From: an uncultured Bacteroidota bacterium
GTDB taxonomy: Bacteria; Bacteroidota; Bacteroidia; Chitinophagales; Chitinophagaceae
DNA length: 62,948 nucleotides
NCBI GenBank assembly: GCA_903929195.1
Contig: CAIYTT010000189.1
Span: 1 to 62,948 of the forward strand
Direction of reading: 5' to 3'
Shown: positions 36,279 through 53,235 of the stretch, piece by piece
Position numbering within the stretch: position 1 is the stretch's first letter
Layout: each line of letters opens with the position of its first letter
Notes under the pieces: model-generated
Database searches by the model: none
Seen by the model: only the letters and a program-made list of their open reading frames with translations
What the model was told of the DNA's origin: nothing
Program-made: the position numbers and the translations under genes

Positions 36279-37457
36279 ATGATGAAACAAGCCCCCGAAC
36301 GCTTGACCGCATTGTTAGATGAATGTAAAACACTCGCATTCGATCTTAATTTTACTTATGCAAAACAATGGAAGTCAAAATCTAAATACAGACTATTAGT
36401 TGGCTATTTGCCAATATATGTGCCAAGAGAAATAATACATGCTGCCAATGGTATGCCGGTAGGCATAATTGGGGTGGGCGACCGTAAGCAAATTATTAAA
36501 GGCGATGCGTATTATCAGTCTTATATATGCCACCTGCCTCGTGGTATAATAGAAATGGTTTTAGATACCAATTTAGATACTTTCGATGGCTTTTTATTCC
36601 CTTCTATTTGCGATTGTGTACGCAATTTAAGCGGTATGTTTAAACTGGCTAAGAAAGGTAAATTCTCCAGATATTTCGACTACCCGCAGAATTTCGAGAA
36701 ACATATAGGTGGTACATTTTACAGGGAATTAATTGAAACGGTTATACACGACATGTTTTTAATTAACGACATGAAGATTACTACACAGCATTTAAATGAC
36801 TCTATAGCATTATATAACCGTAATAGGGAATTGATAGAAATGATATATAATATTCGACAAGAATTTCCTTGGAGGCTTTCTGCTGTTGATACCTATCATA
36901 TAATTAGGGCAGGTATGGTTATTAATGTTGAAAAACATAACGAAATACTTGAAGAAATAGTAGCCTTGATAGACAATGATTTTGGTGAACCAATGGATAA
37001 TATTAGAGTGGTAATATCGGGTTCTTTCTGCGAACAACCACCTATAGGAATGATAAAATCTATTGAAATGGCCGGTTGTTATATTGTAGATGACGACTTT
37101 ATGCTGGGCTCAAGATGGATAAACGGTGGAATAAATAATACTAGTGCCGACCCATTAAACGAAATAGTAAATTCTTTTTTAACACAAAGTGCACCCTCAT
37201 CTGCTATTTACGATGTAGGCAACCCGAAAAGTGCAAGGTTAGTAAGCCAAGTAAGAAACAGAAAGGCTGACGGCGTTATATTTTGTGCGGCAAGCTTCTG
37301 CGACCCGGCATTGTTAGACAGACCGGACTTGCAGAAAGGTTGCGATGATGCAGGTATAGCACATATTAATTTCCAGTTTCACGAAAACACAGGTCAATTC
37401 AAAGTAATAAAAGAACAAGCGGGTACCTTCTCCGATTCCATAAAACTTTGGGTATAA
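36279..37457 (+). CDS. bcrC: Benzoyl-CoA reductase subunit C
   Basis: BcrC and BcrB form the catalytic half of class I benzoyl-CoA reductase, which dearomatises benzoyl-CoA to cyclohexa-1,5-diene-1-carbonyl-CoA, driven by ATP hydrolysis in BcrA and BcrD. The 392-residue protein belongs to the HgdB/2-hydroxyacyl-CoA dehydratase D superfamily and has the BcrC length. Candidate Fe-S cysteines are C84 (SYICHLPRG) and C111/C113 (FPSICDCVRNLSG). Other family segments are VISGSFCEQPP near 250, MLGSRWINGG and FCAASFCDPALLDRPDLQKGCDDAGI. It is the first gene of the plus-strand operon, with bcrB 49 bases on. The order C-B-A-D is that of Thauera. The neighbours dch, had and oah make the benzoyl-CoA assignment much stronger than a generic dehydratase call. 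Confidence 0.9.
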   Translation: MMKQAPERLTALLDECKTLAFDLNFTYAKQWKSKSKYRLLVGYLPIYVPREIIHAANGMPVGIIGVGDRKQIIKGDAYYQSYICHLPRGIIEMVLDTNLDTFDGFLFPSICDCVRNLSGMFKLAKKGKFSRYFDYPQNFEKHIGGTFYRELIETVIHDMFLINDMKITTQHLNDSIALYNRNRELIEMIYNIRQEFPWRLSAVDTYHIIRAGMVINVEKHNEILEEIVALIDNDFGEPMDNIRVVISGSFCEQPPIGMIKSIEMAGCYIVDDDFMLGSRWINGGINNTSADPLNEIVNSFLTQSAPSSAIYDVGNPKSARLVSQVRNRKADGVIFCAASFCDPALLDRPDLQKGCDDAGIAHINFQFHENTGQFKVIKEQAGTFSDSIKLWV

Positions 37458-37506
37458 TACGCTAATAGTATAAAAATATTTTTAACATTATTTAATATAA
37501 ATAAAG

Positions 37507-38808
37507 ATGAGCAATCCTAAAGAAGCAATTAAGGAAAAAAGCATGGTGATTCAAAAAGAGATGCTTGCAAATCTCTTTACAGAATTGAGCAATGCCAAAG
37601 AAAATGGTAAGAAAGTGGTTTACACCTTTGTACCCGGCAACCTCACAGAGTTAATACTCGCCATGGACATGCTTCCGGTTTACCCTGAAATTAATGCCTT
37701 ACAATCGGGTATGCGTAAAAAATCGGGTTCTTATATAAAAGATGCCGAGAAAATGGGCTTTTCAGAAGATGTATGTACTTACGTAAAATGTGATATTGGC
37801 ATGATGCTTAATGGTAACATTGGCCCAACAGGTGAAAAACTACCCGACCCCGATTTACTTTTATTAAGTTATACCGGTTGTTTTACCTTCTTGAAATGGT
37901 TCGAGAATTTGGAACGATTATATCCCGGGGTTGAAATTGCAATGTTACATACCCCTTACCAAGAAGATGGGGTAATAACAGAAGAGCAAATTACATATAT
38001 GGTAAAACAGCTTAAAGAAGATGTAATACCTAAAATGGAAAAAGTAGCGGGTAAAAAATTAGATTACGACCGCTTAGGCAAAATGCTTGATAATGCTGCT
38101 AAGGCAGAAGATTTATGGGTTAAAGTATTAGATACAGCTAAAAACAGACCCTCGCCCATAGATTCTTATTTTGCCGGTGTTTACTATATGGGCCCTTTGA
38201 ATACAGCATTTAGAGGTACCGAAGAAGCTGTAAGCTACTACGAAGAATTATTGAAAGAAGTTACCGACCGCATGAATTTAGGCTTATGCCCGGTAACACC
38301 TGAGGGAGAAATGAAAGAAGAGAAATTTAGATTAGTAGTAGAAGGTCCGCCAAACTGGACCAACTTCCGTGAATTCTGGAAAATATTTTATGATATGGGT
38401 GCGGTAATTGTAGCTTCTACCTATACCAAAGTAGGCGGGTTATACGACCAAGGCTTTAGGCACGAATCGGGCAAGCCATTAGAAAGTTTGGCAAAATATT
38501 GCATGGGTTGCTATACTAATTTGAATTTACCACAAAGAGTAGATTTAATAGAACACTATATAAAAGAATTTAAAGCAGATGGTTTCTTAATTAATTCCAT
38601 AAAAAGCTGCAATTCTTTTTCTGCCGGTCAATTATTAATGATGCGCGAAGTAGAACAAAGATGCGGTATTCCGGTTGGCTTTATTGAAAGTGATTTAGTG
38701 GACCCTCGTTATTTTTCGTATGCAAATATTAAAAACCGATTAGAGTCTTATTTCCAAATGTTAGGACAGCGTAAAACAATTTTGGAGCAGGAAGAAGTAA
38801 ATGCTTAA
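37507..38808 (+). CDS. bcrB: Benzoyl-CoA reductase subunit B
   Basis: The second catalytic subunit of class I benzoyl-CoA reductase, 433 residues, again of the HgdB-type fold. Candidate Fe-S ligands are C90 and C95 (SEDVCTYVKCDIG) and C125 (SYTGCFTFLKWFE). Further family blocks are VEGPPNWTNFREFWKIF, CMGCYTNLNLPQRV and SIKSCNSFSAGQLLMMREVEQRCGIP. With BcrC it would bind benzoyl-CoA and two [4Fe-4S] clusters that receive electrons from the BcrAD activator. It has 22 bases to bcrA. In isolation it might be mistaken for a 2-hydroxyacyl-CoA dehydratase subunit; the operon makes BcrB the best reading. Confidence 0.9.
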   Translation: MSNPKEAIKEKSMVIQKEMLANLFTELSNAKENGKKVVYTFVPGNLTELILAMDMLPVYPEINALQSGMRKKSGSYIKDAEKMGFSEDVCTYVKCDIGMMLNGNIGPTGEKLPDPDLLLLSYTGCFTFLKWFENLERLYPGVEIAMLHTPYQEDGVITEEQITYMVKQLKEDVIPKMEKVAGKKLDYDRLGKMLDNAAKAEDLWVKVLDTAKNRPSPIDSYFAGVYYMGPLNTAFRGTEEAVSYYEELLKEVTDRMNLGLCPVTPEGEMKEEKFRLVVEGPPNWTNFREFWKIFYDMGAVIVASTYTKVGGLYDQGFRHESGKPLESLAKYCMGCYTNLNLPQRVDLIEHYIKEFKADGFLINSIKSCNSFSAGQLLMMREVEQRCGIPVGFIESDLVDPRYFSYANIKNRLESYFQMLGQRKTILEQEEVNA

Positions 38809-38830: not shown

Positions 38831-40252
38831 ATGAATAAATACTATTTAGGAATAGACCTAGGGTCAACTACATCGAAGGCAGTAATTATTAATGAGCAAG
38901 ATGAAATAATAGGAAGAGGTATTACCAATACTCGCGCCAATTATTCGGTAGCGGCAGATATAGCCCGTATGGAAGCTATCTATAATGCTCGCTTTTCTAT
39001 ATTAAAAAAGAATTTGGCTAAAGAAATTGAGTCTAAGCCACAGTATAAAAAATATTTATCAGATTTGGAAAATGTGTTCCAATATGAGCAGTTTAAAGTA
39101 CGTATAGACAAATTAGGCGATGAGTTGCTTAAAACCTGCTATAATTATTTCGAGGGCGAAAGACGCTTAATGATGATAGACCATCTAAGAATAATTCGTA
39201 AAGCAATAAAACCAAAAATAAAACACCAATATATCTACCAAAATTTGGGAGATAAAAATCAGTTTTTTAGAGACATCGTTTCTGAAAAATACAATGAAGA
39301 AGTAAATAAATTCGACATTTCCCTGTTTGAACCTTTAATGACCATTTGGGACAAAAGTATAACTGCTGCAGAAAATGAGATTGTAAATTTCGATTTCCAA
39401 TCTTTAATTACACAGGCAATGGATTTGCTGAAAGAAAAATATGATACGTTACCTGACCAATCAGAAAATATACCTATTGAATCGGATGCGAAGTTTGATG
39501 CAGAGATGTATTTGCTGAAAGGAGATTTTAAAAATGTTTCTGAGTCCTTACGCGACCGTATTGATGAAGTTGCAAACCTTGATTTTAATATTGAGAACAT
39601 GACCGGAACAGGATACGGTAGAGCCTTATTACCTTTTCCACAGGAGTGTATCCGGTCTGAAATTTTATGTCATGCCTTTGGTGCTCATGCTGTTTTCCCA
39701 AATACTAGAACGGTATTAGATATTGGCGGACAAGATACAAAAGCAATACAAGTAGATAAATACGGATTGGTAACCAGTTTCCAAATGAACGACCGTTGTG
39801 CGGCAGGCTGTGGTAGATATTTGGGTTATATAGCTGATGAGATGAGTATTTCTCTTAATGAATTAGGCCCATTAGCAATGCAGGCTGAAAAAGAAGTTAC
39901 AATTTGTTCTACTTGTACGGTATTTGCAGGTGCTGAATTACGCGAACTAACAAATGTAGGCGAAAAAAGAGCTGATATATTAGGTGGCTTGCATAAGGCA
40001 ATTATCATGAGAGCTATGTCTTTAATAGCACGTTCGGGTGGGGTATTTAATGAATTTACATTTACCGGTGGTGTAGCAAGAAATCAGGCGGTAATAAAAT
40101 ACTTAACCCAATTGGTTAAAGAAAATTATGGAGACAATATAAAAATAAATATACATACTGATTCCATATTTATGGGTGCATTAGGTGGTGCCATGTTTGC
40201 ACGCAGAAATATTAAAGCTGATTTACCGAGTGCCGCAAAAGTTAAAAGTTAG
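38831..40252 (+). CDS. bcrA: Benzoyl-CoA reductase subunit A (ATPase/activator)
   Basis: An ASKHA-fold ATPase with a [4Fe-4S] cluster bridging to BcrD; it couples ATP hydrolysis to low-potential electron transfer. The 473-residue protein has phosphate loop 1 (YLGIDLGSTTSKAVI) and phosphate loop 2 with the nearby first cluster cysteine (VLDIGGQDTKAI, then NDRCAAGCGRYLG). A second Cys region (ICSTCTVFAGAELREL) and the adenosine loop (FTGGVARNQAVI) follow. About 200 residues of charged helical sequence (about 45-255) are inserted after the first loop. A large insertion is typical of the Thauera/Rhodopseudomonas (Bcr/Bad) subclass, whereas the Azoarcus BzdP form is near 290 residues. Here it is even longer than the about 440 residues of Thauera BcrA. 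Confidence 0.92.
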   Translation: MNKYYLGIDLGSTTSKAVIINEQDEIIGRGITNTRANYSVAADIARMEAIYNARFSILKKNLAKEIESKPQYKKYLSDLENVFQYEQFKVRIDKLGDELLKTCYNYFEGERRLMMIDHLRIIRKAIKPKIKHQYIYQNLGDKNQFFRDIVSEKYNEEVNKFDISLFEPLMTIWDKSITAAENEIVNFDFQSLITQAMDLLKEKYDTLPDQSENIPIESDAKFDAEMYLLKGDFKNVSESLRDRIDEVANLDFNIENMTGTGYGRALLPFPQECIRSEILCHAFGAHAVFPNTRTVLDIGGQDTKAIQVDKYGLVTSFQMNDRCAAGCGRYLGYIADEMSISLNELGPLAMQAEKEVTICSTCTVFAGAELRELTNVGEKRADILGGLHKAIIMRAMSLIARSGGVFNEFTFTGGVARNQAVIKYLTQLVKENYGDNIKINIHTDSIFMGALGGAMFARRNIKADLPSAAKVKS

Positions 40253-40303: not shown

Positions 40304-41149
40304 ATGTCAGAGGTAGTATATACAATGGGGATTGACGTAGGGAGTAATTTCATAAAATTAGTTTTAATGGAATATTCCGACAATCCGAAATTAATAGATA
40401 AACATACCGAAAAAATACGTAAGCGTAATCCTACACAAGTTGCAGATGAAATGGTGCAAATAATGCTAGATAAAAATAAGCTTAATTATGAAGATGTTGT
40501 TTATCTGGCATCAACCGGAGAAGGTGATTTAGTGAAACGCAAAAGAGGGCATTTTTACGGAATGACTACACATTCTCGCGGTGCTCACTTTTTCTATCCC
40601 GAAGCACGTACCGTAGTAGATTTAGGAGCATTGTATGTGCGTTGTATCCGTATAAATGAAGGTGCAAGAGTTGAAGACTATAAAATGACCGGACAATGTG
40701 CATCGGGTTCCGGACAGTTTTTAGAAAATATATCTCGTTATTTGGGTTTAAGTATCGAGGAGGTCGGTGAGGTGTCTTTACAGGCTACAAATCCCGAAAT
40801 ATCATCGGGTATATGTGCCGTACTAGCCGAAACAGATGTAATAAACATGGTATCGAGAGGTATAAGAACTCCCGATATTATTAAAGGTATTCACTTATCT
40901 ATAGCATCACGCGTAATAAAATTATTAGGTTCTTTAAAAGCAGAGTCGCCAATAATACTTACAGGTGGTATGGCTTTAAATAAAGGCATGATACAAGCAA
41001 TTGATGAAACCTTAAAAGAAGGCAATAAGAAATTTGTTATACATGCACATCCCGATTCTATTTATGCCGGTGCAATAGGTGCTGCAATATGGGGTGGGTA
41101 TCGTCATTTTAGATTATTAGAAAAAGAAAAACAAGCAGTAGTAGCATAA
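40304..41149 (+). CDS. bcrD: Benzoyl-CoA reductase subunit D (ATPase/activator)
   Basis: The partner ATPase of BcrA, 281 residues, the usual BcrD length. Phosphate loop 1 is TMGIDVGSNFIKLVLM and loop 2 is TVVDLGALYVRCI. Cluster cysteines lie in TGQCASGSGQFLENI and SGICAVLAETDVINM, and the adenosine motif is ILTGGMALNKGMI. Both Fe-S cysteine positions are intact. The two ATPases plus BcrB and BcrC complete an ATP-dependent class I reductase. It precedes the ADP-forming acyl-CoA synthetase gene by 10 bases. Confidence 0.92.
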   Translation: MSEVVYTMGIDVGSNFIKLVLMEYSDNPKLIDKHTEKIRKRNPTQVADEMVQIMLDKNKLNYEDVVYLASTGEGDLVKRKRGHFYGMTTHSRGAHFFYPEARTVVDLGALYVRCIRINEGARVEDYKMTGQCASGSGQFLENISRYLGLSIEEVGEVSLQATNPEISSGICAVLAETDVINMVSRGIRTPDIIKGIHLSIASRVIKLLGSLKAESPIILTGGMALNKGMIQAIDETLKEGNKKFVIHAHPDSIYAGAIGAAIWGGYRHFRLLEKEKQAVVA

Positions 41150-41159: not shown

Positions 41160-43289
41160 ATGGAATCAGCAGTCCTTCAACCGGTGAAACAATCGGTAAA
41201 TGAACTTGATTTTTTATTCAAGCCCAAGTCTATTGCAATTATTGGTGCATCGCAAAAAGAATTGTCGATTGGAAATGTAATAATTAAAAATTTGGTTAGT
41301 TATGGTTATACGGGTTCTATCTATCCCATTAACCCTAAAATGAATGAAATAAGAGGCATACAAGCTTACCCTACCATATTTGATGTTCCTTATGATATTG
41401 ATTTAGCCCATGTTATAGTGCCGGCAAAAGCAGTACCGCAAATTATTGATGAATGTGGACAAAAAGGCATTAAAGCTGTTATTATTAATTCTGCCGGTTT
41501 TAGCGAAATGGGTGATGAAGGAATAGCCTTACAGAAAGATTTTTTAAGGATAGCAAAGAATTACGGTATCCGTATTTTTGGGCCTAACTGCCAAGGTATT
41601 ATCAATACAGACGCTGAATATAAAGCGTATTGCGATTTTACGTTTACATTTCCAAAACCCGGTAATATTTCCATTGTTGCATTAAGTGGTGGTGTTGGTG
41701 CATTTATAATGCAGAGTTTGTTCGATTTGGATTTCGGTATGAGATTGTATGCATCAAATGGTAATGCTTGTGATGTTTCCATATCTGATGTAATTAAGTA
41801 TTATGGCGATGATGAACAAACAAAAGTAATACTACTCTATACCGAGGGGCTTTCTAATCCTTTAGAGTTTATGGAAGTGGCAAAAGAGGTTACCAAAAAG
41901 AAACCGATACTTGCCATGAAAGCCGGTAGAACCGAAGAAGGAGCAAAAGCTGCTGCTTCGCATACAGGAGCATTGGCAGGTGTAGATATTTCTACAGAAC
42001 TTATTTTTGAAAAAACAGGTATTCTTGCCTTTAATAATGAAGAGGAATTATGCCAGGTAGCAATGGCATTTACTACACAGCCAATACCTAAAGGCAATAG
42101 AGTAGGCATTATTACCAACACCGGAGGGCCGGCAGTAATAGCCACCGATGAATTGGTTAGTGCAGGGCTTAGATTACCGGCATTGTCAGATAGAGCAAAA
42201 GCTATATTACAAGCTACACAACTACCCGAAGCAACAATAGGTAATCCAATAGATGTAGTAGCTACCGGTGGCGGTGTGCATTTTAGAAGTGCATTAGATG
42301 TGTTAATGGATGAAGAAGATATTGACTCTATATATATAAATTTTGTAACAGCCCCCTTCACCGATACCGATGAAGTGGCAAGAAATATTGTGGAAGTAAG
42401 TAAATTGAAACGGAAGCCGATTATTTGCAATTTCATGACAAATATGAGTTTGGAACGGTTTCAGGTAACTGCTGCAATATTAAAAGAAGGTGGTGTGCCT
42501 TGTTATAGTTTCCCAACTACTGCGGCAAAAGCTTTGGGTGCATTGTATCGTTACAGCAAAGTAAGAGATAGAAACATTGGTGAAGCAAAGGAATACCCAG
42601 TCATAAATAAAGAGTTCGTAGCTTCTATTCTACAAAAAGCACACCAAGAAAATAAAGAATACTTACCTGCCGATGCGGTATATCAGATTTTAGATGCTTA
42701 CGGAATCCCTACTGCACCTTGGCAATTAACTGAAAGTATTGTTGATGCCGAAAATGCAGCCGAAAAAATAGGTTATCCGGTGGTTGTAAAAGCAGAATCC
42801 GAAACGATTATTCATAAAAGTGATATGGGTGGGGTAGCAATCAATTTAAAAAATGCTACTGAAGTTAGTGCGGCATTACAAAAAATGCATGAAAATTTAG
42901 GCTCTCATAATTTAAAATTCTTAGTTCAAAAATTTCTACCGGGTGGTAAAGAATTAATTGCAGGTGTAAGCATAAAACAAGGATTAGGGCATTTAATCAT
43001 GTTTGGATTGGGTGGCATATATGTAGAAGTCTTAAAAGATGTAGTTTTTAAAATAGCTCCTGTTACACCATTAGAAACAACTGAAATGCTTGCTTCTATA
43101 AAGGCATCTAAATTATTAGATGGCGTAAGAGGCGAAAAAGGAATTAATAAGGAATTAGTTAAAGAGATAATACAAAGAGTGTCGCAATTGGTAACCGATT
43201 TCCCGATGATACAAGAAATGGATATGAACCCGATTATAGCATTAAACAATAAAGTGTTTGTGGTAGATGCAAGAATGAAAATTAAATAA
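41160..43289 (+). CDS. ADP-forming acyl-CoA synthetase, fused alpha and beta parts
   Basis: A 709-residue NDP-forming acyl-CoA synthetase. The N-terminal CoA-binding domain (FLFKPKSIAIIGASQKELSIGN) is followed by the CoA-ligase domain with the likely phosphorylated histidine near 267 (AAASHTGALAG) and the C-terminal ATP-grasp domain (about 485-709; YPVVVKAESETIIHKSDMGGVAI, VQKFLPGGKELIAGV, FPMIQEMDMNPI). These enzymes reversibly couple acyl-CoA hydrolysis to ATP formation, or activate acids with release of ADP. Inside this operon it could activate benzoate or harvest ATP from glutaryl-CoA or acetyl-CoA. No AMP-forming benzoate-CoA ligase is in the window. The substrate is not evident from sequence. 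Confidence 0.9.
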   Translation: MESAVLQPVKQSVNELDFLFKPKSIAIIGASQKELSIGNVIIKNLVSYGYTGSIYPINPKMNEIRGIQAYPTIFDVPYDIDLAHVIVPAKAVPQIIDECGQKGIKAVIINSAGFSEMGDEGIALQKDFLRIAKNYGIRIFGPNCQGIINTDAEYKAYCDFTFTFPKPGNISIVALSGGVGAFIMQSLFDLDFGMRLYASNGNACDVSISDVIKYYGDDEQTKVILLYTEGLSNPLEFMEVAKEVTKKKPILAMKAGRTEEGAKAAASHTGALAGVDISTELIFEKTGILAFNNEEELCQVAMAFTTQPIPKGNRVGIITNTGGPAVIATDELVSAGLRLPALSDRAKAILQATQLPEATIGNPIDVVATGGGVHFRSALDVLMDEEDIDSIYINFVTAPFTDTDEVARNIVEVSKLKRKPIICNFMTNMSLERFQVTAAILKEGGVPCYSFPTTAAKALGALYRYSKVRDRNIGEAKEYPVINKEFVASILQKAHQENKEYLPADAVYQILDAYGIPTAPWQLTESIVDAENAAEKIGYPVVVKAESETIIHKSDMGGVAINLKNATEVSAALQKMHENLGSHNLKFLVQKFLPGGKELIAGVSIKQGLGHLIMFGLGGIYVEVLKDVVFKIAPVTPLETTEMLASIKASKLLDGVRGEKGINKELVKEIIQRVSQLVTDFPMIQEMDMNPIIALNNKVFVVDARMKIK

Positions 43290-43295
43290 TAAAAA

Positions 43296-44516
43296 ATGAT
43301 GTACAAAATAGAATCTGCAAAAGTATTAAAGGAAATAATGGCTAATTATTTTCTTGGCATGAAAAGTACAGAAAAAAAATATGCTTGGTGTACAAGTGTT
43401 GGACCTGCCGAACTATTAAGGTCATTTGGTTTTGAAGTACATTTTCCTGAAAATCACGGTGCTTTATTAGGCACATCCAGAACAGCAGGCGATTATATAC
43501 CGGAGTCGTCTAAATTGGGTTATTCTAATGATATTTGTTCTTATATGACTGCCGATATTGGGTCGTTTTTGAAGAAAGAAACTCCACTCACTAAACATTA
43601 TCAGCTCGACGGCCCACCTAAACCATCTATTATTGTTTATAACACCAATCAATGCCGGGAGGTACAAGATTGGTTTAATTTTTTCGGTAAAGAATTAGGT
43701 TGTCCTGTTTTTGGCATTACACCACCCAGACATTTAGATGAAGTAAAGCAAGAAGAAATAGATGATGTAGCCACACAGTTTAGAAATTTAATACCTCTTT
43801 GCGAGCAAGTTAGCGGTATAAAGTTTGATATTGACAGGTTTAGAGAAACCTTAAAACTAAGCAAAGAGGCTACTGATTTATGGAAACAAGTATTATGGAC
43901 AGCAACCGCATCGCCGGCACCCATCAGCTTTTTTGATGCAACCATACACATGGGGCCAATAGTAGTATTGAGAGGCACGCAGATAGCAAAAGATTATTAT
44001 AAAGTATTATTAGAAGAGTTGCAAGGCAATGTAAATAAAGGAATTGGATTTTTAGAAAAAGAAAAAAGTCGTATTTATTGGGACGGAATGCCTATTTGGG
44101 GGAAATTAAGACCCTTATCAGAATTATTTATTCAGAATAATGCAGCTATTGTGGCTTCTACTTATTGCAATAGTTGGGTTTTTGATGCCTTTGATGAAAG
44201 ACACCCCTTTGAATCGTCTGCAAAAGCTTATACCGAAATTTTTATAAATAGAAGCGAAAGTGCAAAAGAGAAAATTTTATCGGGCTTAGTGCATGACTTT
44301 CATATTGACGGCATTATTTTTCATGATGCAAAAACATGTGCAAATAATTCTAATTCCCGTTTCGGAATGCCACAAAGATTAAGAGAAACATTAGGAATAC
44401 CTACATTGGTTATAGAAGGCGATTTGTGCGACCTCCGGTTTTACTCTGAAGGGCAGAGTATTACTAAAATGGAAACATTTATAGAACAAATTGAAAGTTC
44501 AAAAGTGCTTATTTAA
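43296..44516 (+). CDS. HgdB/FldB-like 2-hydroxyacyl-CoA dehydratase-type subunit
   Basis: A 406-residue third member of the BcrB/BcrC/HgdB superfamily in this operon. Unlike BcrB and BcrC it retains the dehydratase-like first cysteine block YAWCTSVGPAELLRSFGFEV (C32). Further cysteines are C81 (NDICSYMTADIGS) and C120 (YNTNQCREVQDWF), a three-Cys pattern that could hold a [4Fe-4S] cluster. Later blocks are VASTYCNSWVF, HDAKTCANNSNSRFGMPQRLRETLGIP and VIEGDLCDLRFYS. Dehydratases normally need two such subunits plus an ATPase activator. Only one is found here, together with the ATPase domain at the end of the gene at 45065. It starts six bases after the acyl-CoA synthetase gene. A dehydratase, a second ring reductase or a helper of BcrBC are all possible. 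Confidence 0.8.
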   Translation: MMYKIESAKVLKEIMANYFLGMKSTEKKYAWCTSVGPAELLRSFGFEVHFPENHGALLGTSRTAGDYIPESSKLGYSNDICSYMTADIGSFLKKETPLTKHYQLDGPPKPSIIVYNTNQCREVQDWFNFFGKELGCPVFGITPPRHLDEVKQEEIDDVATQFRNLIPLCEQVSGIKFDIDRFRETLKLSKEATDLWKQVLWTATASPAPISFFDATIHMGPIVVLRGTQIAKDYYKVLLEELQGNVNKGIGFLEKEKSRIYWDGMPIWGKLRPLSELFIQNNAAIVASTYCNSWVFDAFDERHPFESSAKAYTEIFINRSESAKEKILSGLVHDFHIDGIIFHDAKTCANNSNSRFGMPQRLRETLGIPTLVIEGDLCDLRFYSEGQSITKMETFIEQIESSKVLI

Positions 44517-44540
44517 AAAAATATATAAAACAAATATTTT

Positions 44541-45023: not shown

Positions 45024-45064
45024 AAGGTAAGGATTAACCAAACATAATACAATATAAATATTAT

Positions 45065-46934: not shown

Positions 46935-48194
46935 ATGAAGTCTTTTCACAGTAAGGAAAAAGGATTTGGAATAATTTATGATGACATTTTTTTACTAAAT
47001 GGCGCCAGAACACCATTTGGAAAATTATGTGGTACACTTGGCAGTATATCGCCAACAGATTTAGGTATTTTTGCTTGTAGGGCAGCAATAGACAAATCGG
47101 GTATATCGCCCAATGATATAGACCAGATAATGATGGCAAACATAGGGCAAAGCTCTTATGATGCCTATTTTTTACCTCGCCACGTAGGTTTATATGCAGG
47201 AGTACCCCAAACGATTCCTGCTGTTTTATTACAGCGTATTTGCGGGTCGGGGTTTGAGACAATGACTGCCGGAGCAGACCAAATTACATTAGGTAAGGCA
47301 GATGTAGCACTTTGCGGTGGTACCGAAAATATGACCTTAGCACCAACTGTAAGCTTTGGCAATAGAAACGGTTATGCATTAGGTAGGGTAGAATTTAAAG
47401 ATTTTCTTTGGGAAGCATTAAATGATACTGCTGCTGTACCAATGGGCTGCACAGCAGAAAATATTGCAAAACAATATGGAATTACCAGATTGGAAACAGA
47501 TGAATATGGTATGCTATCGGTTGATAGAGCTATTGCTGCTACCCAACGAGGCTTCTTAAAAGAGGAAATAGTACCATTGAATTCTATAATATTTGAGGCA
47601 GAGGGCTTAAAACCAAGAAAAGTTTCCTTACCTAAAAAGGTAACAGATTTTGTTACAGACGAAAATATCCGTTCTTCTTCTTTGGATATTATGTCTAAGT
47701 TGCCAACAACTTTTGAAAAAGACGGAGTACAAACAGCCGCAAATTCAAGCGGTATTGTTGACGGTGCAGCTTCTGCTGTTATCGCAGGGAAAAATTTTAT
47801 TTCTGCACGCAACTTAAACCCACTTACAAGGGTTGTGGCTTCGGCTACAAGTGCATTAGACCCAAAAGTTATGGGCTTAGGTCCTGTACCGGCTATTAGA
47901 TTGCTATTGGAAATGACCGGATTGACAATTGGTGAAATTGGTTTGATAGAAATAAATGAGGCTTTTGCAGCACAGTTTATCGGTTGCGAAAGAGAATTAG
48001 GATTAGATAGAAACATCTGTAATGTTAATGGTGGTGCTATTGCATACGGTCATCCGCTTGCTGCAAGCGGTTTAAGACTGTCGTTGACCCTAAGTAGAGA
48101 AATGAATATAAGAAAAGTAAAATATGGAATAGCCTCTGCTTGTATTGGCGGTGGACAAGGGAATGCAATGTTATTTGAAAATATAAATCTTTAA
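46935..48194 (+). CDS. Thiolase (3-oxoacyl-CoA thiolase)
   Basis: A 419-residue thiolase with all catalytic residues: nucleophilic cysteine C103 (QRICGSGFETM), GLIEINEAFAAQF, His near 372 (NGGAIAYGHPLAASG) and the second cysteine near 402 (ASACIGGGQGNAM). In the benzoyl-CoA pathway the expected reaction is cleavage of 3-oxopimeloyl-CoA with CoA to glutaryl-CoA and acetyl-CoA. It starts 10 bases after the fusion gene and ends four bases before had. Confidence 0.92.
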   Translation: MKSFHSKEKGFGIIYDDIFLLNGARTPFGKLCGTLGSISPTDLGIFACRAAIDKSGISPNDIDQIMMANIGQSSYDAYFLPRHVGLYAGVPQTIPAVLLQRICGSGFETMTAGADQITLGKADVALCGGTENMTLAPTVSFGNRNGYALGRVEFKDFLWEALNDTAAVPMGCTAENIAKQYGITRLETDEYGMLSVDRAIAATQRGFLKEEIVPLNSIIFEAEGLKPRKVSLPKKVTDFVTDENIRSSSLDIMSKLPTTFEKDGVQTAANSSGIVDGAASAVIAGKNFISARNLNPLTRVVASATSALDPKVMGLGPVPAIRLLLEMTGLTIGEIGLIEINEAFAAQFIGCERELGLDRNICNVNGGAIAYGHPLAASGLRLSLTLSREMNIRKVKYGIASACIGGGQGNAMLFENINL

Positions 48195-48198: not shown

Positions 48199-49266
48199 AT
48201 GAGTAATCAAAAAATATATAAGTGGCAAATGACTGCCCTTAATACAGAATTTACACTTGTAGAAGAGGCAGTGCCGGAATTAAAAGCCGGAGAAGCTTTA
48301 ATAAAAGTTGCAGGTTGTGGCGTATGCCATACCGATATTAGTTTTTGGCATGCAGGTGTGCAAACCAAGCACCCGTTACCACTTACTTTAGGACACGAAA
48401 TTAGCGGTACAGTAGTTGCAGGACCAGCGGAATGGTTAAATAAAAATGTAATTATTCCGGCAGTATTGCCTTGTGGCGAATGCGAATTATGCAAAAAAGG
48501 TCGCAGCAATATTTGTCGCAATCAATTAATGCCGGGTAATGATTTTGACGGTGGTTTTGCATCACATATTAAAGTGCCGTATAAATATTTGTGTCCTGTA
48601 CCCGACGCTGTATTGCAAAAATACACATTACAGCAGTTATCCATTATAGCCGATGCGGTTTCTACACCTTATCAGGTAATGAAAAAAGCGGAAATAGAAC
48701 CGGGTGATTTGGCTATTGTAATAGGCGTGGGTGGTGTAGGAATTTATGGAGCACAAATTGCAAAAATATTTGGTGCAAAAGTGATTGCTCTTGATGTAAA
48801 TGATGAGAAATTGGCGATTGCTAAACAAAATGGCATAGATGCAACCTTGAATATTAGAGGATTGGATATAAAAGAAATAAAAGACAAAGTAAAAGCTATC
48901 GTTAAAGAATTGAAGGCTTCACCGTTTTGCTGGAAGATATTTGAAATGTCGGGTACTAAAGCAGGGCAAGAAACCGCTTTTAACCTCATAACGTTTGCTT
49001 CTACGCTGTCGGTTGTTGGTTTTACAATGGATAAAGTGGAAGTACGTTTAAGTAATTTAATGGCTTTTGATGCTAAACTGATAGGTACTTGGGGTTGTAA
49101 ACCGGAATTGTACCCGGAAGTTGTGGCACTCGTAGCCGATGATAAATTACATATTGATGAGTTTGTACAAACATTCCCTATGTCGCAAATAAATGATGTA
49201 TTTAAGAATACATTAGAGCATAAGTATGTAAAACGTTCTGTTTTAGTTCCTGATTTTAATAATTAA
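48199..49266 (+). CDS. had: 6-Hydroxycyclohex-1-ene-1-carbonyl-CoA dehydrogenase
   Basis: A 355-residue zinc-dependent medium-chain dehydrogenase. It oxidises 6-hydroxycyclohex-1-ene-1-carbonyl-CoA to the 6-oxo compound with NAD. Zinc ligands are in GCGVCHTD (C40, with C43 beside it) and GHEI (H66, E67). The structural Zn cysteines are in CGECELCKKGRSNIC. The cofactor loop is VIGVGGVGIYGAQIA. Had-specific segments are present: FCWKIFEMSGTKAGQE and LMAFDAKLIGTWGCKPELYPEV, which closely resemble the Thauera enzyme from memory. It lies next to oah (13 bases). Confidence 0.93.
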   Translation: MSNQKIYKWQMTALNTEFTLVEEAVPELKAGEALIKVAGCGVCHTDISFWHAGVQTKHPLPLTLGHEISGTVVAGPAEWLNKNVIIPAVLPCGECELCKKGRSNICRNQLMPGNDFDGGFASHIKVPYKYLCPVPDAVLQKYTLQQLSIIADAVSTPYQVMKKAEIEPGDLAIVIGVGGVGIYGAQIAKIFGAKVIALDVNDEKLAIAKQNGIDATLNIRGLDIKEIKDKVKAIVKELKASPFCWKIFEMSGTKAGQETAFNLITFASTLSVVGFTMDKVEVRLSNLMAFDAKLIGTWGCKPELYPEVVALVADDKLHIDEFVQTFPMSQINDVFKNTLEHKYVKRSVLVPDFNN

Positions 49267-49279: not shown

Positions 49280-50380
49280 ATGAAGCAATTGAAAAACCAT
49301 GATATTGTTACAATAGATTTCAAAGAAATCTTATTTGAAAAGCGTCCTTGTTTAGACAGAGACGGTAGTGCAAAAGAAGGATTGTATAATGCATGGATTA
49401 TATTAAATAATCCTAAACAGTATAATTCTTATACTACAGCTGCTATTAAAGAGATGATACTTGCATTTAGAACGGCATCGAACGACCGTAGTGTTGTTGC
49501 CGTGGTTTTAACTGCTGTAGGCGATAAAGCATTTTGTACCGGTGGCAATACCAAAGAGTATGCAGAATATTATTCAGGCAACCCACAGGAATATTCGCAA
49601 TACATGCGTTTGTTTAACGACATGGTATCTGCAATATTAATGTGCGAAAAACCTGTTATATGCCGTATAAATGGCATGAGAGTAGGTGGCGGACAAGAAA
49701 TAGGTATGGCGTGCGATTTCAGTATTGCCAGCGATATGGCACGCTTGGGTCAAGCAGGACCTAAACACGGCAGTGCCCCAATTGGTGGTGCAACAGACTT
49801 TTTACCTTTGTTTGTAGGGGTAGAAAGAGCAATGTTTTCACTAACCTTATGCGAGCCTTGGACGGCACATCAAGCTTATTACTATGGCGTGCTTACAGAT
49901 ATTGCCCCTGTTTTAAAGCTTGACGGTAAATTTATTGCCAACCCAATGGTAGTTACAGAAAAAGTAGTTGACGAATATGGAAGAATAATATTTGGAGCAA
50001 TGAAAACAGGTGATGAATTAGCTAAAGCTAAGGAAATTGTTGCAAAAGCAGAGGTTGACTTAACAATGCTTGATAAAACAGTAAATACACTTATAGCTAA
50101 AATATTGCACACCTTCCCTAATTGTATGAATAAAACAATTAGTGAAGTACGTAAATTTAAATTAGAACATTGGGATAAAAACAAAGAAGGCAGTAGAGAG
50201 TGGTTGGCATTAAATATGATGACAGAAGCAAAAGCAGGTTTCTGTGCATTTAATGACGGCCCTAAAGAAAACCGTGAAGTTGATTTTGTTTTGTTACGTC
50301 AGTTATTGGCAGAAGGACATGCTTGGAACGATGAACTACATGAAACGATTTCTCCTCAATTTCAAAAACAAAGTGTTTAA
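49280..50380 (+). CDS. oah: 6-Oxocyclohex-1-ene-1-carbonyl-CoA hydrolase (ring opening)
   Basis: A 366-residue crotonase-superfamily enzyme of the length specific to Oah (crotonases are usually near 260). It adds two waters to 6-oxocyclohex-1-ene-1-carbonyl-CoA and opens the ring to 3-hydroxypimelyl-CoA. The oxyanion region (FCTGGNTKEYAEYYSGNPQEY), the loop ICRINGMRVGGGQEIGMACDFSIA and the GPKHGSAPIGGATDFLPLFVG segment are characteristic. The extended C-terminal region (EVRKFKLEHWDKNKEGSREWLALNMMTEAKAGF) is also typical. Oah is the accepted functional marker gene for anaerobic aromatic degradation (bamA family). It lies between had and dch. Confidence 0.95.
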   Translation: MKQLKNHDIVTIDFKEILFEKRPCLDRDGSAKEGLYNAWIILNNPKQYNSYTTAAIKEMILAFRTASNDRSVVAVVLTAVGDKAFCTGGNTKEYAEYYSGNPQEYSQYMRLFNDMVSAILMCEKPVICRINGMRVGGGQEIGMACDFSIASDMARLGQAGPKHGSAPIGGATDFLPLFVGVERAMFSLTLCEPWTAHQAYYYGVLTDIAPVLKLDGKFIANPMVVTEKVVDEYGRIIFGAMKTGDELAKAKEIVAKAEVDLTMLDKTVNTLIAKILHTFPNCMNKTISEVRKFKLEHWDKNKEGSREWLALNMMTEAKAGFCAFNDGPKENREVDFVLLRQLLAEGHAWNDELHETISPQFQKQSV

Positions 50381-50388: not shown

Positions 50389-51162
50389 ATGAAAAAAGTA
50401 AGGGTTAATTATTTATTTGAAGGCGCAGTAGCACAAATAATTTTAGATGATGGTAAAGGAAATGTACTTGACCACATCATGATGGAAGACTTAATGGGAT
50501 TATTTGAAGAATTTAAAAGCCGTAATGATTTAAAGCTGATTACTTTTGAAGGAGCCGGGAAACACTTTTCTTTTGGTGCAAGTGTTGAAGAACATCAAAA
50601 GGACATGGCAGGTAATATGATACACTCTTTTCATGCAATGTTTTTGGCAATAAGAGATTTAGCGATACCTACATTAGCAAAAATAACTGGACAGTGCTTA
50701 GGCGGTGGTATGGAATTAGCTATTATGTGTAATTTTTTATATGCCGACAAAACAGCAAAAATGGGGCAGCCTGAGATTATTTTAGGTGTTTTCCCACCAC
50801 CGGCATCTGTAATATTGCCTGAAAAAATAGGACTTGCAAAAGCTGAAGAAATCATAATTACAGGTCGCACTTTACTTGCCGATGAATGCAAAACAATTGG
50901 CTTGCTGAACGAATTATATAATGACAAAACAGAATTGGAAGCTGGAGTAAATCAGTTTATAGAGCAGCATATTCTACCCAAAAGTGCTGTTTCATTAAGG
51001 TATGCAGTAAAATCAGTAAGAGTAAAATTCAATCATATATTAGGTAACTTTTTGCCTATATTAGAACAGATGTATGTAAATGAATTAATGAATACAAAGG
51101 ATGCTAATGAGGGTATTAATTCCTTTTTGGAAAAAAGAAAACCGAATTGGAGTAATAATTAA
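50389..51162 (+). CDS. dch: Cyclohexa-1,5-diene-1-carbonyl-CoA hydratase
   Basis: A 257-residue crotonase-type hydratase. It adds water to the dienoyl-CoA product of benzoyl-CoA reductase, giving 6-hydroxycyclohex-1-ene-1-carbonyl-CoA. Dch-type motifs are seen: HFSFGASVEEH, GQCLGGGMELAIMCNFLYA, KMGQPEIILGVFPPPAS, the C-terminal SLRYAVKS and the final INSFLEKRKPNW. This last pattern agrees closely with the Thauera enzyme as recalled. It starts eight bases after oah. A perfect palindrome follows the gene. Confidence 0.95.
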   Translation: MKKVRVNYLFEGAVAQIILDDGKGNVLDHIMMEDLMGLFEEFKSRNDLKLITFEGAGKHFSFGASVEEHQKDMAGNMIHSFHAMFLAIRDLAIPTLAKITGQCLGGGMELAIMCNFLYADKTAKMGQPEIILGVFPPPASVILPEKIGLAKAEEIIITGRTLLADECKTIGLLNELYNDKTELEAGVNQFIEQHILPKSAVSLRYAVKSVRVKFNHILGNFLPILEQMYVNELMNTKDANEGINSFLEKRKPNWSNN

Positions 51163-51176
51163 TTTAATGTAAATAT

Positions 51177-51202: not shown

Positions 51203-51237
51203 ATGTATTAATAATAATTCTGTAAAAGTTTAATTAT

Positions 51238-53235
51238 ATGAAATCTATTAAAACAGTTGGTGTAGTAGGAGCCGGAACAATGGGTGCTGCTATTACACAA
51301 AAATTTGCACAAGAAAATTTTAAAGTAATGCTTGCAGACAGAGAAGAAACGTATGTGCAACGCGGTATTGGTAATATTACTAAAATGCTTACCGAAGGGA
51401 TTGAACGTAAAGTATTTACCAAAGAGCAGGTAGATGGCTATTTGTCTAATATTACCGGTACACATAATTTGGAGGATTTAAAAAAGTGCGATTTAATTGT
51501 TGAAGCCATTTTTGAAGATTTTAATGCTAAAACAGATTTATTTAAAACATTAAGTTCTATTGTGAATGCAGATACTATATTAGCAACCAATACCTCTTCC
51601 TACTCGGTTACCGAATTAGCAGAATCTGTAAAGAATCCGGAGCGTTTTATTGGGTTACATTATTTTTATCATGCAGCGAAAAACAGGTTGGTAGAAATAA
51701 TACCGGGTGCCAAAACAGCACAGAATGTTATAGATGCTGCAAAATCGTTTTCGATGCTTTCGGGCAAAGATGCTATTATATGTAAAGATTCGTATGGTTT
51801 TGTGGTTAACCGTTTTTTTGTTCCTTGGCTTAATGAATCTGTAAGATTATTGCATGAAAAGGTAGCTAATATAGCTACAATAGATGCTGTATGTATGGAT
51901 GTTTTTGGCATAGGTATGGGACCATTTGCGCTTATGAATGCAACTGGAGTGCCGGTAGCCTACCATGCACAAAAAACACTTGAAAGATTAGGAAGCCTTT
52001 ATTCGGTAGCTCCTAAACTGAAAGAACAAGCACTAAGTGGTGTTCAATGGAGTTTAGAAGGCGATATTGATACAAGTGAAGAAGTAAAAAAGAACATTAG
52101 CGATAGAATGTTAGGTGTAGTATTTTTTGTTTGTTCGCAATTACTTGATGAAAAAGTGTGTAATGCAGTAGATATTAACAGAGGTGCAAAAATAGGATTG
52201 AAATGGAAACGTGGCCCTATTGAACTAATGCAGTATTATAAAGAAGAAAATGTGTGGGCTGCAATTCATAAAATTGCAGGTTTATATCAAATGCACGTGC
52301 CTGTATCCATCGGTATGCAATATTGGAATATGCAATTTGTTGATTTAGAAACGAAAGGTTCCACTGCCATTATTACCATGAACAGACCCGAAGATTTAAA
52401 TGCATTAAATGAAGAAGTAATGCAACAATTGGATAAGCAATTTACATTAGCCAATAATAATGCATCTATTGACACAATCTTTATAACAGGTGCAGGTAAA
52501 GCTTTTGTTGCCGGTGCCGATATTAAGTTTTTTATAAAAAACATTAAGGCAAACAAAATAAAAGACATTGAAACCTTTACAGCTTATGGGCAAGAGGTGT
52601 TTAGGAAAATAGATGAGTCGCCTAAAAAAGTAGTTGCCGTAATAAATGGCTTAGCATTAGGTGGTGGTTTAGAACTTGCCTTATGTGCCGATGTACTATT
52701 TGCCATGCCTAAAGCACAAATGGCGTTCCCCGAAACAGGTATCGGAATCTATCCCGGTTTAGGAGGCACACAACGCAGTGCCACTAAAATAGGCAAACCA
52801 ATGGCTAAATACCTTATTCTTAGTGGTAAAATGTTGAGTGCCAAAGATGCAGCAGAAATAGGTTTGATAGATAAAGTAATAATGCCGGAAGACTTATATG
52901 AATTAATAGCCGGCAATATGCCACTGCCTACTAACGGTACTACAAAATTAAACACCAAATGGCAACTTATAGAGCAATTTTTCAAGAATAACACCACAAC
53001 TTCTATAATAGAAAACAAGTATAACAAAGGAGAAATGGCGAGTGAAGATGCTGAAAAAATTGTAAAAACATTGAAACGTAAAGCTCCGGTTGCATTAGAA
53101 ATAGCCACCAAGTTAATAGAAGAAGCAAAGGGCTGTGAAACTGAATTACAACACTTGCAAACAATTTTCACTACATCAGATGCTTTATTAGGTTTAAGCT
53201 CTATTGGTAAGCAAGTAGAATATACGGGCAAATAG
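51238..53235 (+). CDS. 3-Hydroxyacyl-CoA dehydrogenase / enoyl-CoA hydratase fusion
   Basis: A 665-residue bifunctional protein. Residues 1-about 290 are the NAD-dependent 3-hydroxyacyl-CoA dehydrogenase (Rossmann loop VGVVGAGTMGAAIT, LIVEAIFEDF, ATNTSSYSVTELA, IGLHYFYHAAKNRLVEIIPG with the catalytic His). Residues about 365-560 are an enoyl-CoA hydratase (GAGKAFVAGADIKFF, INGLALGGGLELALCADV, FPETGIGIYPGLGGTQR). The order is dehydrogenase first, the reverse of FadB and like the archaeal and FadN-type fusions. It would oxidise 3-hydroxypimelyl-CoA to 3-oxopimelyl-CoA; the hydratase half fits 2-enoyl-pimelyl-CoA or general acyl-CoA chemistry. It ends the operon; no clear terminator is seen after it. 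Confidence 0.9.
   Translation: MKSIKTVGVVGAGTMGAAITQKFAQENFKVMLADREETYVQRGIGNITKMLTEGIERKVFTKEQVDGYLSNITGTHNLEDLKKCDLIVEAIFEDFNAKTDLFKTLSSIVNADTILATNTSSYSVTELAESVKNPERFIGLHYFYHAAKNRLVEIIPGAKTAQNVIDAAKSFSMLSGKDAIICKDSYGFVVNRFFVPWLNESVRLLHEKVANIATIDAVCMDVFGIGMGPFALMNATGVPVAYHAQKTLERLGSLYSVAPKLKEQALSGVQWSLEGDIDTSEEVKKNISDRMLGVVFFVCSQLLDEKVCNAVDINRGAKIGLKWKRGPIELMQYYKEENVWAAIHKIAGLYQMHVPVSIGMQYWNMQFVDLETKGSTAIITMNRPEDLNALNEEVMQQLDKQFTLANNNASIDTIFITGAGKAFVAGADIKFFIKNIKANKIKDIETFTAYGQEVFRKIDESPKKVVAVINGLALGGGLELALCADVLFAMPKAQMAFPETGIGIYPGLGGTQRSATKIGKPMAKYLILSGKMLSAKDAAEIGLIDKVIMPEDLYELIAGNMPLPTNGTTKLNTKWQLIEQFFKNNTTTSIIENKYNKGEMASEDAEKIVKTLKRKAPVALEIATKLIEEAKGCETELQHLQTIFTTSDALLGLSSIGKQVEYTGK

Follow-up and report, generated by a model that had tools for sequence, protein, structure and literature searches.

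The 62,948-nucleotide contig analyzed here (CAIYTT010000189.1, hereafter the window), from an uncultured member of the Chitinophagaceae, very probably carries a complete Bcr-type (class I, ATP-dependent) benzoyl-CoA operon and a linked, ATP-activated auxiliary module; this confidence, drawn from sequence comparison, does not extend to the substrate of the module. The ORF list of the window places 13 plus-strand open reading frames (ORFs) at positions 36279 to 53235, with intergenic gaps of 4 to 75 bases (Table 1). The class I operon claimed in the original prediction is confirmed, with BcrB, BcrC, BcrD, Had, and Oah all scoring above their cut-offs, and the nine genes it named (BcrC-B-A-D, Dch, Had, Oah, a dehydrogenase, and a thiolase) were correctly identified. 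Its total of 13 genes was also right, but the four at 41160 to 46924 had been left unexplained: acs, hgdB2, orf160, and the KPR-activase fusion fall outside the known benzoyl-CoA route.

Table 1. Features of the operon and its left flank, with positions in the window and profile scores in bits.
Feature	Position	Strand	Evidence
Hemerythrin-domain protein	33393..33923	-	PF01814
Short-chain dehydrogenase (FabG-like)	33941..34681	-	TIGR01830 250.6, below cut-off 297.75
xdhC-like molybdenum hydroxylase maturation factor	34678..35448	-	NF045664 210.7, below cut-off 350
mocA-like molybdenum cofactor nucleotidyltransferase, divergent from operon	35445..36164	-	NF045665 101.2, TIGR03310 93.6, both below cut-off
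TGAT-N4-ATCA palindrome upstream of bcrC	36181..36192		FNR/CRP-family-like (presumed)
bcrC, benzoyl-CoA reductase subunit C	36279..37457	+	TIGR02263 440.8, above cut-off 421.15
bcrB, benzoyl-CoA reductase subunit B	37507..38808	+	TIGR02260 679.9, above cut-off 486.55
bcrA, ATPase subunit A	38831..40252	+	Best match TIGR02259 441.6, below cut-off 578
bcrD, ATPase subunit D	40304..41149	+	TIGR02261 318.6, above cut-off 312.85
acs, ADP-forming acyl-CoA synthetase	41160..43289	+	Pfam CoA_binding_2, Succ_CoA_lig, ATP-grasp_5
hgdB2, single HGD-D subunit, 2-hydroxyacyl-CoA dehydratase alpha-like	43296..44516	+	PF06050
orf160, stand-alone lid (C-terminal) domain of adenylate-forming ligase	44541..45023	+	Structure match
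KPR-activase fusion	45065..46924	+	TIGR00745 151.4 (cut-off 141.35), TIGR00241 161.3 (cut-off 125.4)
Thiolase (3-oxopimeloyl-CoA and/or 3-oxo-3-arylpropanoyl-CoA)	46935..48194	+	TIGR01930 380.6, above cut-off 240.55
had, 6-hydroxycyclohex-1-ene-1-carbonyl-CoA dehydrogenase	48199..49266	+	TIGR03201 453.8, above cut-off 338.65
oah	49280..50380	+	TIGR03200 591.8, above cut-off 464.45
dch, cyclohexa-1,5-dienecarbonyl-CoA hydratase	50389..51162	+	Best match TIGR03189 205.5, below cut-off 292.5
3-Hydroxyacyl-CoA dehydrogenase + crotonase fusion	51238..53235	+	Pfam 3HCDH_N, 3HCDH, ECH_1

The case for the benzoyl-CoA pathway is strong. One operon encodes all four reductase subunits, B and C of the HGD-D type and A and D of the ATPase type, and their cysteines are conserved: five in all 85 alignment rows of BcrB, five in 79/79 rows of BcrA, two in 68/68 rows of BcrD, and six in 72 to 74 of the 74 rows of BcrC. 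Scores for the Bzd type in a profile search of the window stayed below their cut-offs (BzdN, 84.3 against 453.8 bits; BzdO, 93.8 against 448.6; BzdQ, at most 139.6 against 380.2). A pairwise comparison with G002, another metagenome-assembled genome (MAG) of the genus, shows purifying selection on every one of the 13 genes (dN/dS, 0.006 to 0.062).

We predict that BcrCBAD carries out ATP- and ferredoxin-dependent benzoyl-CoA reduction. A 2-oxoacid oxidoreductase would supply reduced ferredoxin to BcrA/D, and ATP hydrolysis would power a two-electron reduction of the ring on BcrB/C; the ring would then be opened and cleaved to glutaryl-CoA and acetyl-CoA. Elsewhere, the host MAG, which is 99% complete, encodes a glutaryl-CoA dehydrogenase (GCDH; 440.6 bits to 3d6b), a 2-oxoacid:ferredoxin (acceptor) oxidoreductase (645.6 bits, above cut-off), and an enzyme that we call only Hcr-like with respect to 4-hydroxybenzoyl-CoA reductase, its best models (TIGR03194/03195) giving about 791 to 792 of 994.55 and 213 of 404.55 bits, short of the cut-offs. 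With these, the predicted pathway is complete on paper; in G045, a search for a 2-oxoacid oxidoreductase above the cut-off found none. The set of BcrC, B, A, and D with Dch, Had, and Oah is that of the Thauera/Magnetospirillum Bcr pathway. Here, however, the host belongs to the Bacteroidota, BcrA and Dch fall below their cut-offs, four genes are added, and the operon has no ferredoxin or korAB gene, the oxidoreductase being encoded elsewhere; in Thauera, we take both to be placed with the bcr operon.

Among the extra genes, acs probably encodes an aryl or aryl-hydroxyacyl CoA ligase, to judge from its sequence, and according to our neighborhood tables an AMP-forming ligase replaces it in the equivalent part of the operon in many relatives. 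HgdB2 aligns C81, C120, and C348, kept in 55/55 rows, with C84, C117, and C346 of HadB, residues that we take to be cluster ligands. The genome encodes only three HGD-D proteins (BcrB, BcrC, and hgdB2), and no separate beta HGD-D subunit was found in it. Known 2-hydroxyacyl-CoA dehydratases are, to our knowledge, heterodimers; since such a partner is missing from the genome, hgdB2 must be a homodimer or share a BCR subunit. Orf160, which has no Pfam or NCBIfam matches, yields a predicted model (pLDDT, 87.9) that matches, with an E value of 1.2e-6, the A domain of carboxylic acid reductase. It is the lid only, without the N-terminal adenylation domain of a full adenylate-forming ligase; stand-alone copies lack the lid lysine, orf160 itself having a glutamate at that position, and five near-invariant cysteines are kept in 53 to 55 of 55 rows. 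The fourth protein joins a ketopantoate-reductase-family (KPR) dehydrogenase (residues ~1 to 315; ApbA and ApbA_C) to a BcrA/D-type activase (~350 to 600; BcrAD_BadFG). K198, N202, E280, N285, C471, and C510 are kept in all 37 fused-length rows, the first three presumably being the catalytic residues of the KPR domain. The best solved relatives of that domain (2ew2, 8wl1/8wl3/8wl4, and 3wfi) are all deposited as 2-dehydropantoate 2-reductase, although we take 3wfi to be a D-mandelate dehydrogenase. An apparent three-way hgdB2-KPR-activase fusion of 1021 aa in L099 proved to be an overlapping open frame, with hgdB2 as a separate gene. Our literature search found no description of this four-gene module.

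The extra genes probably feed aromatic acids into the ring-reduction pathway. The order of steps that we favor, put forward tentatively and with somewhat less than even confidence, runs from arylpyruvate to benzoyl-CoA. The KPR domain would convert arylpyruvate, derived from phenylalanine or tyrosine, to (R)-aryllactate, and the ligase (acs or AMP-forming) would activate this to the CoA thioester. Dehydration by hgdB2, which the activase would recharge, would then give cinnamoyl- or coumaroyl-CoA, which the crotonase/dehydrogenase and thiolase of the operon would shorten to (4-hydroxy)benzoyl-CoA, to be passed to the Hcr-like enzyme and the BCR. The module resembles the (R)-2-hydroxyacyl-CoA dehydratases (HadBC with HadI and FldABC with FldI), with which it shares an alpha-type HGD-D subunit with three cysteines, a BadF-type activase, a 2-hydroxyacid-dehydrogenase-like domain, and CoA activation. 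In contrast to those systems, the module has a single HGD-D subunit, an activase fused to a KPR-family dehydrogenase, and a BCR alongside, and it has a ligase where they use a CoA transferase. A hypothetical route from phenylpyruvate to benzoyl-CoA, for benzene-derived phenylpyruvate, has been drawn for the sulfate-reducing benzene degrader BzS1 and follows the same reaction series, with a phenyllactyl-CoA dehydratase and cinnamoyl-CoA; the portion of that report available to us describes no KPR-activase fusion (PMC13416013). It is possible, if doubtful, that the Bacteroidota have an anaerobic aromatic amino acid route of their own, in which a single-subunit radical dehydratase and an activase fused to a 2-hydroxyacid dehydrogenase are coupled to class I ring reduction, with the five-cysteine, lid-derived domain as an iron-sulfur or metal partner. 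Several points weigh against this scheme. HgdB2 has no beta partner, the operon ligase may serve benzoate itself, and hgdB2 is missing from only 4 of the genomes behind the best 80 of the 281 BcrB matches among GTDB genomes, the set in which we counted loci and scored presence by tblastn; losses of a purely peripheral phenylalanine route should be more frequent.

Alternatively, hgdB2 could act with the activase on substituted benzoyl-CoAs, either as a second reductase or as a reductive dehydroxylase, or could assist the BCR as an accessory, with the KPR domain separate or regulatory. We consider this unlikely. A BCR does accompany hgdB2 in every genome where hgdB2 was found, BCRs use the HGD-D fold too, and Hcr-like genes lie adjacent to or inside the locus in relatives. 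Yet hgdB2 has the TSVxPxEL motif of HadB, and its best model is HadB (NF052455; 200.8 bits, below the cut-off of 750) rather than BcrB (161.9 bits). In our tree it forms its own clade apart from BcrB, although long branches make the deeper placement weak, and a KPR domain of the NAD(P) type is difficult to fit.

An operon devoted to benzoate also seems improbable. In this reading, acs or the AMP-forming ligase would be a benzoate-CoA ligase, and hgdB2, orf160, and KPR-activase would make up a 2-hydroxyacid pathway that is unrelated to it and merely inherited along with it. None of 19 genomes searched has a benzoate-CoA ligase above the cut-off elsewhere, so benzoate may be all that the ligase of the operon activates. 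Moreover, three Bacteroidota-labeled genomes among the best 80 of 281 (L087, L089, and L096) have BcrB without hgdB2. In G214, whose reductase is of the Bzd type only, acs adjoins the Bzd operon, and hgdB2 and KPR are on other contigs. However, when 394 Bacteroidota genomes were drawn evenly, the four with hgdB2 all had a reductase as well, of the Bcr type in three and of the Bzd type in G214, and G214 has kept the scattered module genes, with acs (60%), KPR (46%, two copies), and activase (48%), besides an Hcr-like gene. Likewise, hgdB2 and BcrB co-occur in 76 of the best 80 of 281 genomes, L036 and L099 among them, and the module genes recur in order between bcrD and thl/had across relatives. 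The KPR domain is present in 74 of these best 80.

Even less probable is a module that converts glutaconyl-CoA, from glutaryl-CoA, through 2-hydroxyglutaryl-CoA and 2-hydroxyglutarate to 2-oxoglutarate, yielding ATP through acs and ferredoxin for the BCR through the 2-oxoacid oxidoreductase. HgdB2 belongs to the 2-hydroxyglutaryl-CoA dehydratase D-component family, an ADP-forming acs could work in the ATP-making direction, and the oxidoreductase is present and in G113 adjoins hcr-like and bcr genes. But in 30 loci among the best 80 of 281 the ligase is AMP-forming and acs is absent from the locus, which favors thioester formation, and G000 encodes a GCDH closely similar to the decarboxylating enzymes, making a glutaconyl-CoA bypass unnecessary.

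A contig chimera or binning artifact is hardly credible and already largely refuted: the assemblies of the window's genome and of several relatives consist of hundreds of contigs, but the left junction is the same in G002, the single-contig Bacteroidota genomes G113 and G345 have the operon (with insertions), and the GC content of the operon (0.34 to 0.38) lies inside the window range of 0.29 to 0.39, though slightly higher than in most of the left flank (0.29 to 0.33). Integration of the operon, as originally proposed, is supported, and so is the Bacteroidota host, by the kinship groups of genomes; gyrB and serS are both present. The operon is nearly identical in G002 and occurs in all five genomes that exceed the BcrB cut-off among 59 (the window's own included), being split across two contigs in G002, G003, and G045. 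G003 has an intact thiolase (80% identical), G045 a different 688-residue protein where the last operon gene would stand, and the G113 piece an HGD-D protein at the place of bcrC. The best 80 of 281 BcrB matches come almost exclusively from uncultured Bacteroidota. The operon is a recurrent trait across these organisms, resident in a Bacteroidota lineage, and the evidence does not support its being an isolated oddity. A Proteobacterial link through L049, labeled "Competibacteraceae", was rejected: its genome groups with the window's phylum and a T9SS sorting domain is encoded by an ORF on that contig, so we discount the label as evidence of transfer. Proteobacterial Bcr proteins sought in plasmids gave nine records at only 22 to 26% identity.

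Proteobacteria, together with a small number of strict anaerobes, are usually regarded as the organisms of anaerobic dearomatization. The single mention of a class I reductase in Bacteroidota that we found concerns the Vicingaceae MAG KA17, in one sentence and a table entry; it is of the Bzd and not the Bcr type, and the accessible part of the report describes no operon or module (PMC8470020). G214 resembles KA17 in its Bzd-type reductase and adds hgdB2, KPR, activase, and acs. In another phylum of the FCB superphylum, Krumholzibacteriota MAGs have class I bcr and the pathway to 3-hydroxypimeloyl-CoA; the part of that report available to us describes no such module, and its survey of 37 representative FCB genomes lists no bcr or bam genes (PMC10936416). 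A complete class I pathway under selection across many uncultured Bacteroidota would revise views of who mineralizes aromatics at oxic-anoxic boundaries, and the module offers a testable link from protein degradation (phenylalanine and tyrosine) to ring reduction. Two of its proteins would be novel: the dehydrogenase that is joined to an ATP-driven activase, and the lid domain that has been retained with its cysteines where its ligase has been replaced.

Upstream of bcrC, the mocA-like gene adjoins the operon in relatives as well, according to our neighborhood tables; its true start is probably within the called ORF, because the G002 copy has 206 aa. The FabG-like gene is divergent from the operon in 40 loci, and the hemerythrin-domain gene present in 22, of the best 80 of 281. 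Promoter and terminator scans of the window gave no signal above shuffles, and the window has no tRNA or Rfam matches. The palindrome before bcrC, which we take to be an FNR/CRP-family-like site, occurs in 27 of 76 bcrC upstream regions, from related rows, against 0.8 in base shuffles. Counted against other genes of the same loci, it precedes bcrC in 21/73 upstream regions and the others in 31/294, which is suggestive only of a candidate FNR-like site.

Thirteen ORFs with intergenic gaps of 4 to 75 bases make up the operon, as the original prediction of thirteen tightly spaced plus-strand genes had it. BcrC, BcrB, BcrD, Had, and Oah exceed the curated NCBIfam cutoffs; for BcrA (441.6 of 578 bits) and Dch (205.5 of 292.5 bits), the right model is the best match, at a score under its cutoff. 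Four further genes, namely, acs, hgdB2, orf160, and the KPR-activase gene, lie among the core members and are referred to here as the module. A palindrome upstream of bcrC recurs before this gene in relatives at variable distances, with modest enrichment compared with the upstream regions of other genes.

Features of the window and of two related loci
Feature	Coordinates	Strand	Description	Family evidence
Operon	window 36279-53235	plus	thirteen ORFs	
Thiolase; dehydrogenase/crotonase fusion			remaining core members of the operon	NCBIfam/Pfam
acs			ADP-forming acyl-CoA synthetase; operon member	Pfam
hgdB2			third HGD-D protein beside BcrB and BcrC; operon member	
orf160			160 residues; operon member	no family match
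KPR-activase			ketopantoate-reductase-family dehydrogenase (KPR) fused to a BcrA/D-type activase; operon member	
mocA-, xdhC-, short-chain-dehydrogenase-, and hemerythrin-like genes			left of the operon, divergent	
TGAT-N4-ATCA palindrome	window 36181-36192		upstream of bcrC	
UbiD-family decarboxylase	window 16265-18187		menaquinone type	TIGR03701, over cutoff
Extra gene of order member G045	L021:5038-6462		between thl and had	B12-binding/radical SAM-like protein
Two reductase sets on a Bacteroidota contig	L075:3919-12907		Bcr-type bcrCBAD and a divergent second, Bzd-like set	

The window is one of the 244 contigs of a 4.19-Mb metagenome-assembled genome (MAG), G000 (99.2% complete, 0.59% contaminated). 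The GC content of the operon (0.34 to 0.38) falls inside the window range of 0.29 to 0.39 and is slightly above that of most of the left flank. BcrB exceeds the cutoff in 5 of 59 genomes: G000 itself, two of its three congeners, one member of its family, and one of its order. The congener G002 has the whole operon, split over two contigs, with all 13 proteins 94 to 100% identical to those of the window, and repeats the left flank (a 628-residue gene, hemerythrin, SDR, xdhC, and mocA). Across the 13 genes, dN/dS against G002 ranges from 0.006 to 0.062; dS against genome G022 is mostly saturated. All 13 operon genes are also present in G022 and in the congener G003. In the order member G045, acs and orf160 give way to an AMP ligase whose end resembles orf160, and another 688-residue protein (29% identity) replaces the last gene. 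In the third congener, G001 (92% complete), the searches found no benzoyl-CoA reductase (BCR), HGD-D protein, Hcr-like (4-hydroxybenzoyl-CoA-reductase-like) gene, or KPR relative. Of 394 evenly drawn Bacteroidota genomes, the window's own included, three have BcrB over the cutoff: G000, G113, and G345. The last two are single-contig genomes with the same operon order, apart from insertions of a saccharopine-dehydrogenase-family gene in G113 and Hcr-like genes in G345. Together with the flank repeated in G002, these genomes bear out the view of an integrated, nonchimeric operon.

The view of this operon as an oddity within Bacteroidota is not supported. Searching GTDB r220 contigs with a five-sequence BcrB alignment yielded 281 relatives, of which we kept the 80 best (72 to 100% identity). 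Nearly all of these 80 are titled as Bacteroidota (or its families), Ignavibacteria, or Chlorobiota. The exceptions among these 80 are one each from Armatimonadetes, KSB1, and "Competibacteraceae." The last of these (L049, titled Candidatus Competibacteraceae) is probably a mislabeled Bacteroidota MAG, since a genome draw around it gave the same BcrB places as the window's draw and its contig carries an ORF with a T9SS sorting domain. The literature also already records a class I-type reductase for the phylum: one sentence and a table of PMC8470020 assign all four Bzd-type reductase subunits to a MAG with narG and nosZ from the Vicingaceae, a family of Bacteroidota. PMC10936416 describes bcr for Krumholzibacteriota, and the 37 FCB genomes that it uses as representatives are reported to have none. 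In PMC7946887, benzoyl-CoA reductase features of the gut are attributed to Firmicutes, Proteobacteria, and Actinobacteria; the relevant section names none for Bacteroidetes. Our literature search, which covered a minority of subscription titles, returned no paper joining ketopantoate reductase with BCR; given this coverage, the Bcr-type operon or the module may already be in print.

The BcrB phylogeny, built from 85 rows and rooted at the midpoint, contains two deep, supported clades. One of them, with 58 rows and the Armatimonadetes row branching first, includes the window, and the other includes its order-mate G045; thus, on this tree, the history of BcrB is not purely vertical. The bcrCBAD genes of the Armatimonadetes-titled locus (L048, genome G449) are 71 to 80% identical to those of the window. 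Given this likeness in a genome without hgdB2 or KPR, a transfer of bcr is possible.

The module genes accompany BCR in most of these genomes. Among the best 80 of the 281 BcrB matches, a tblastn search located hgdB2 in 56 loci; for two more (L022 and L032), it was found in the genomes G002 and G003, and 18 further genomes carry it outside the locus (in G808, in two pieces), giving 76 of 80. It was not found for L048, L087, L089, and L096. The KPR domain is present in 74 of the same 80 (51 loci, G002 and G003, and 21 elsewhere); L029 and L070 have the activase half only, and no match was found for L026, L038, L048, and L096. Outside the 80, a search at 1e-40 matched no KPR protein in G001, G004, or G005. 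Fusion of KPR with the activase is not obligatory, since some loci (L083, L066, and L108) carry the two as distinct genes. HGD-D proteins occur in 25 of the 394 Bacteroidota genomes, 21 of which belong to one other family (two genera) with two to five such proteins each. None of the proteins from these 21 genomes matched the BcrB model at 0.001, and by these searches they form a separate set of dehydratase-like systems. The other four genomes are G000, G113, G345, and G214. The last has no Bcr-type BcrB; it carries instead a Bzd-like set of four subunits, with a flavin/Fe-S oxidoreductase-like protein and an acs 60% identical to that of the window. Its other relevant genes lie elsewhere: hgdB2 (66%), two for KPR proteins (46%), one for an activase (48%), and one that is Hcr-like. 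In this single genome, the module is thus retained next to a different type of reductase.

Three cysteines of HgdB2 align with C84, C117, and C346 of HadB and are conserved in 55 of 55 rows; HgdB2 also carries the HadB motif TSVxPxEL. It scores higher with the HadB model than with the BcrB model, far below the HadB cutoff, and forms its own clade in a tree where HadB and MbdO are long branches and deeper placement is weak. In the KPR-activase, K198, N202, E280, and N285 of the KPR domain and C471 and C510 of the activase are kept in all 37 fused-length rows; the best solved relatives of the KPR domain are 2ew2, 8wl1, 8wl3, 8wl4, and 3wfi.

The orf160 product, modeled with a pLDDT of 87.9, matches the adenylation domains of carboxylic acid reductases (E value of 1.2e-6; TM score of 0.59). 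In 30 of the best 80 of 281 loci, an AMP-forming ligase of 558 to 614 residues occurs without acs, and the end of this ligase matches orf160; that of L035 has the Pfam domains AMP-binding and AMP-binding_C_3. Five cysteines of orf160 are conserved in 55, 55, 53, 55, and 55 of 55 rows, two of which (L013 and L031) come from one genome. Of 34 full-length ligases, 33 carry the lid lysine; L040, the one that does not, is truncated and adjoins an acs. Excluding L021 (at a contig edge) and L013 (a duplicate), only 1 of 19 stand-alone copies (L028) has lysine at this position, and in several, the segment is wholly missing. It seems from these alignments that acs replaced the ligase in the window's lineage while the cysteine-bearing lid was retained, for which a metal or Fe-S role may be predicted. 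Twelve Bacteroidales-like acs loci lack orf160 (with a doubtful match in L101); the domain is therefore dispensable in places.

The core enzymes would act in the known order of steps from benzoyl-CoA to glutaryl-CoA dehydrogenase: ferredoxin, BcrA/D with ATP, BcrB/C, Dch, Had, Oah, the dehydrogenase, thiolase, and glutaryl-CoA dehydrogenase. For the module, we favor a putative route of aryllactyl-CoA dehydration, since it would give every enzyme gene present a use. Moreover, 3wfi-type KPR enzymes make (R)-2-hydroxyacids, 2-hydroxyacyl-CoA dehydratases require (R)-2-hydroxyacyl-CoA, and AMP-forming ligases favor thioester synthesis, all of which argues for this route. Against it stands the missing second dehydratase subunit; no fourth HGD-D protein was found in the G000 genome. 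An identical series of reactions appears as a proposal, made with a different aim, in PMC13416013. A saccharopine-dehydrogenase-family gene lies inside 9 of 89 fetched loci (Pfam check made for four of these), a hint that amino acid catabolism converges on glutaryl-CoA. These loci are L036, L040, L047, L049, L067, L074, L098, L099, and L107, several with the gene between bcrA and bcrD.

Elsewhere, G000 encodes a glutaryl-CoA dehydrogenase (440.6 bits to 3d6b) and a 2-oxoacid:acceptor oxidoreductase over the cutoff (645.6 bits); the latter exceeds it in 10 of 12 genomes, not in G045 and G004. No benzoate-CoA ligase scored over the cutoff in 19 genomes. Hcr-like matches of 787 to 970 bits occur in 17 of 19 genomes; of the other two, G449 reaches 619 bits and G001 has no match. 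The large Hcr-like gene lies inside 24 of the 89 fetched loci, some of them sharing a genome. The Hcr-like molybdenum hydroxylase of G000, scoring under the Hcr cutoffs, has its gamma-like and alpha-like parts fused, with a beta-like gene adjoining. Because a cytochrome c oxidase subunit I-like gene (593.9 bits, under the cutoff of 670.75) is present on contig C71 (L141), we infer a facultative lifestyle for G000. On this contig, the Hcr-like genes lie one gene downstream of the oxidase gene, not beside bcr.
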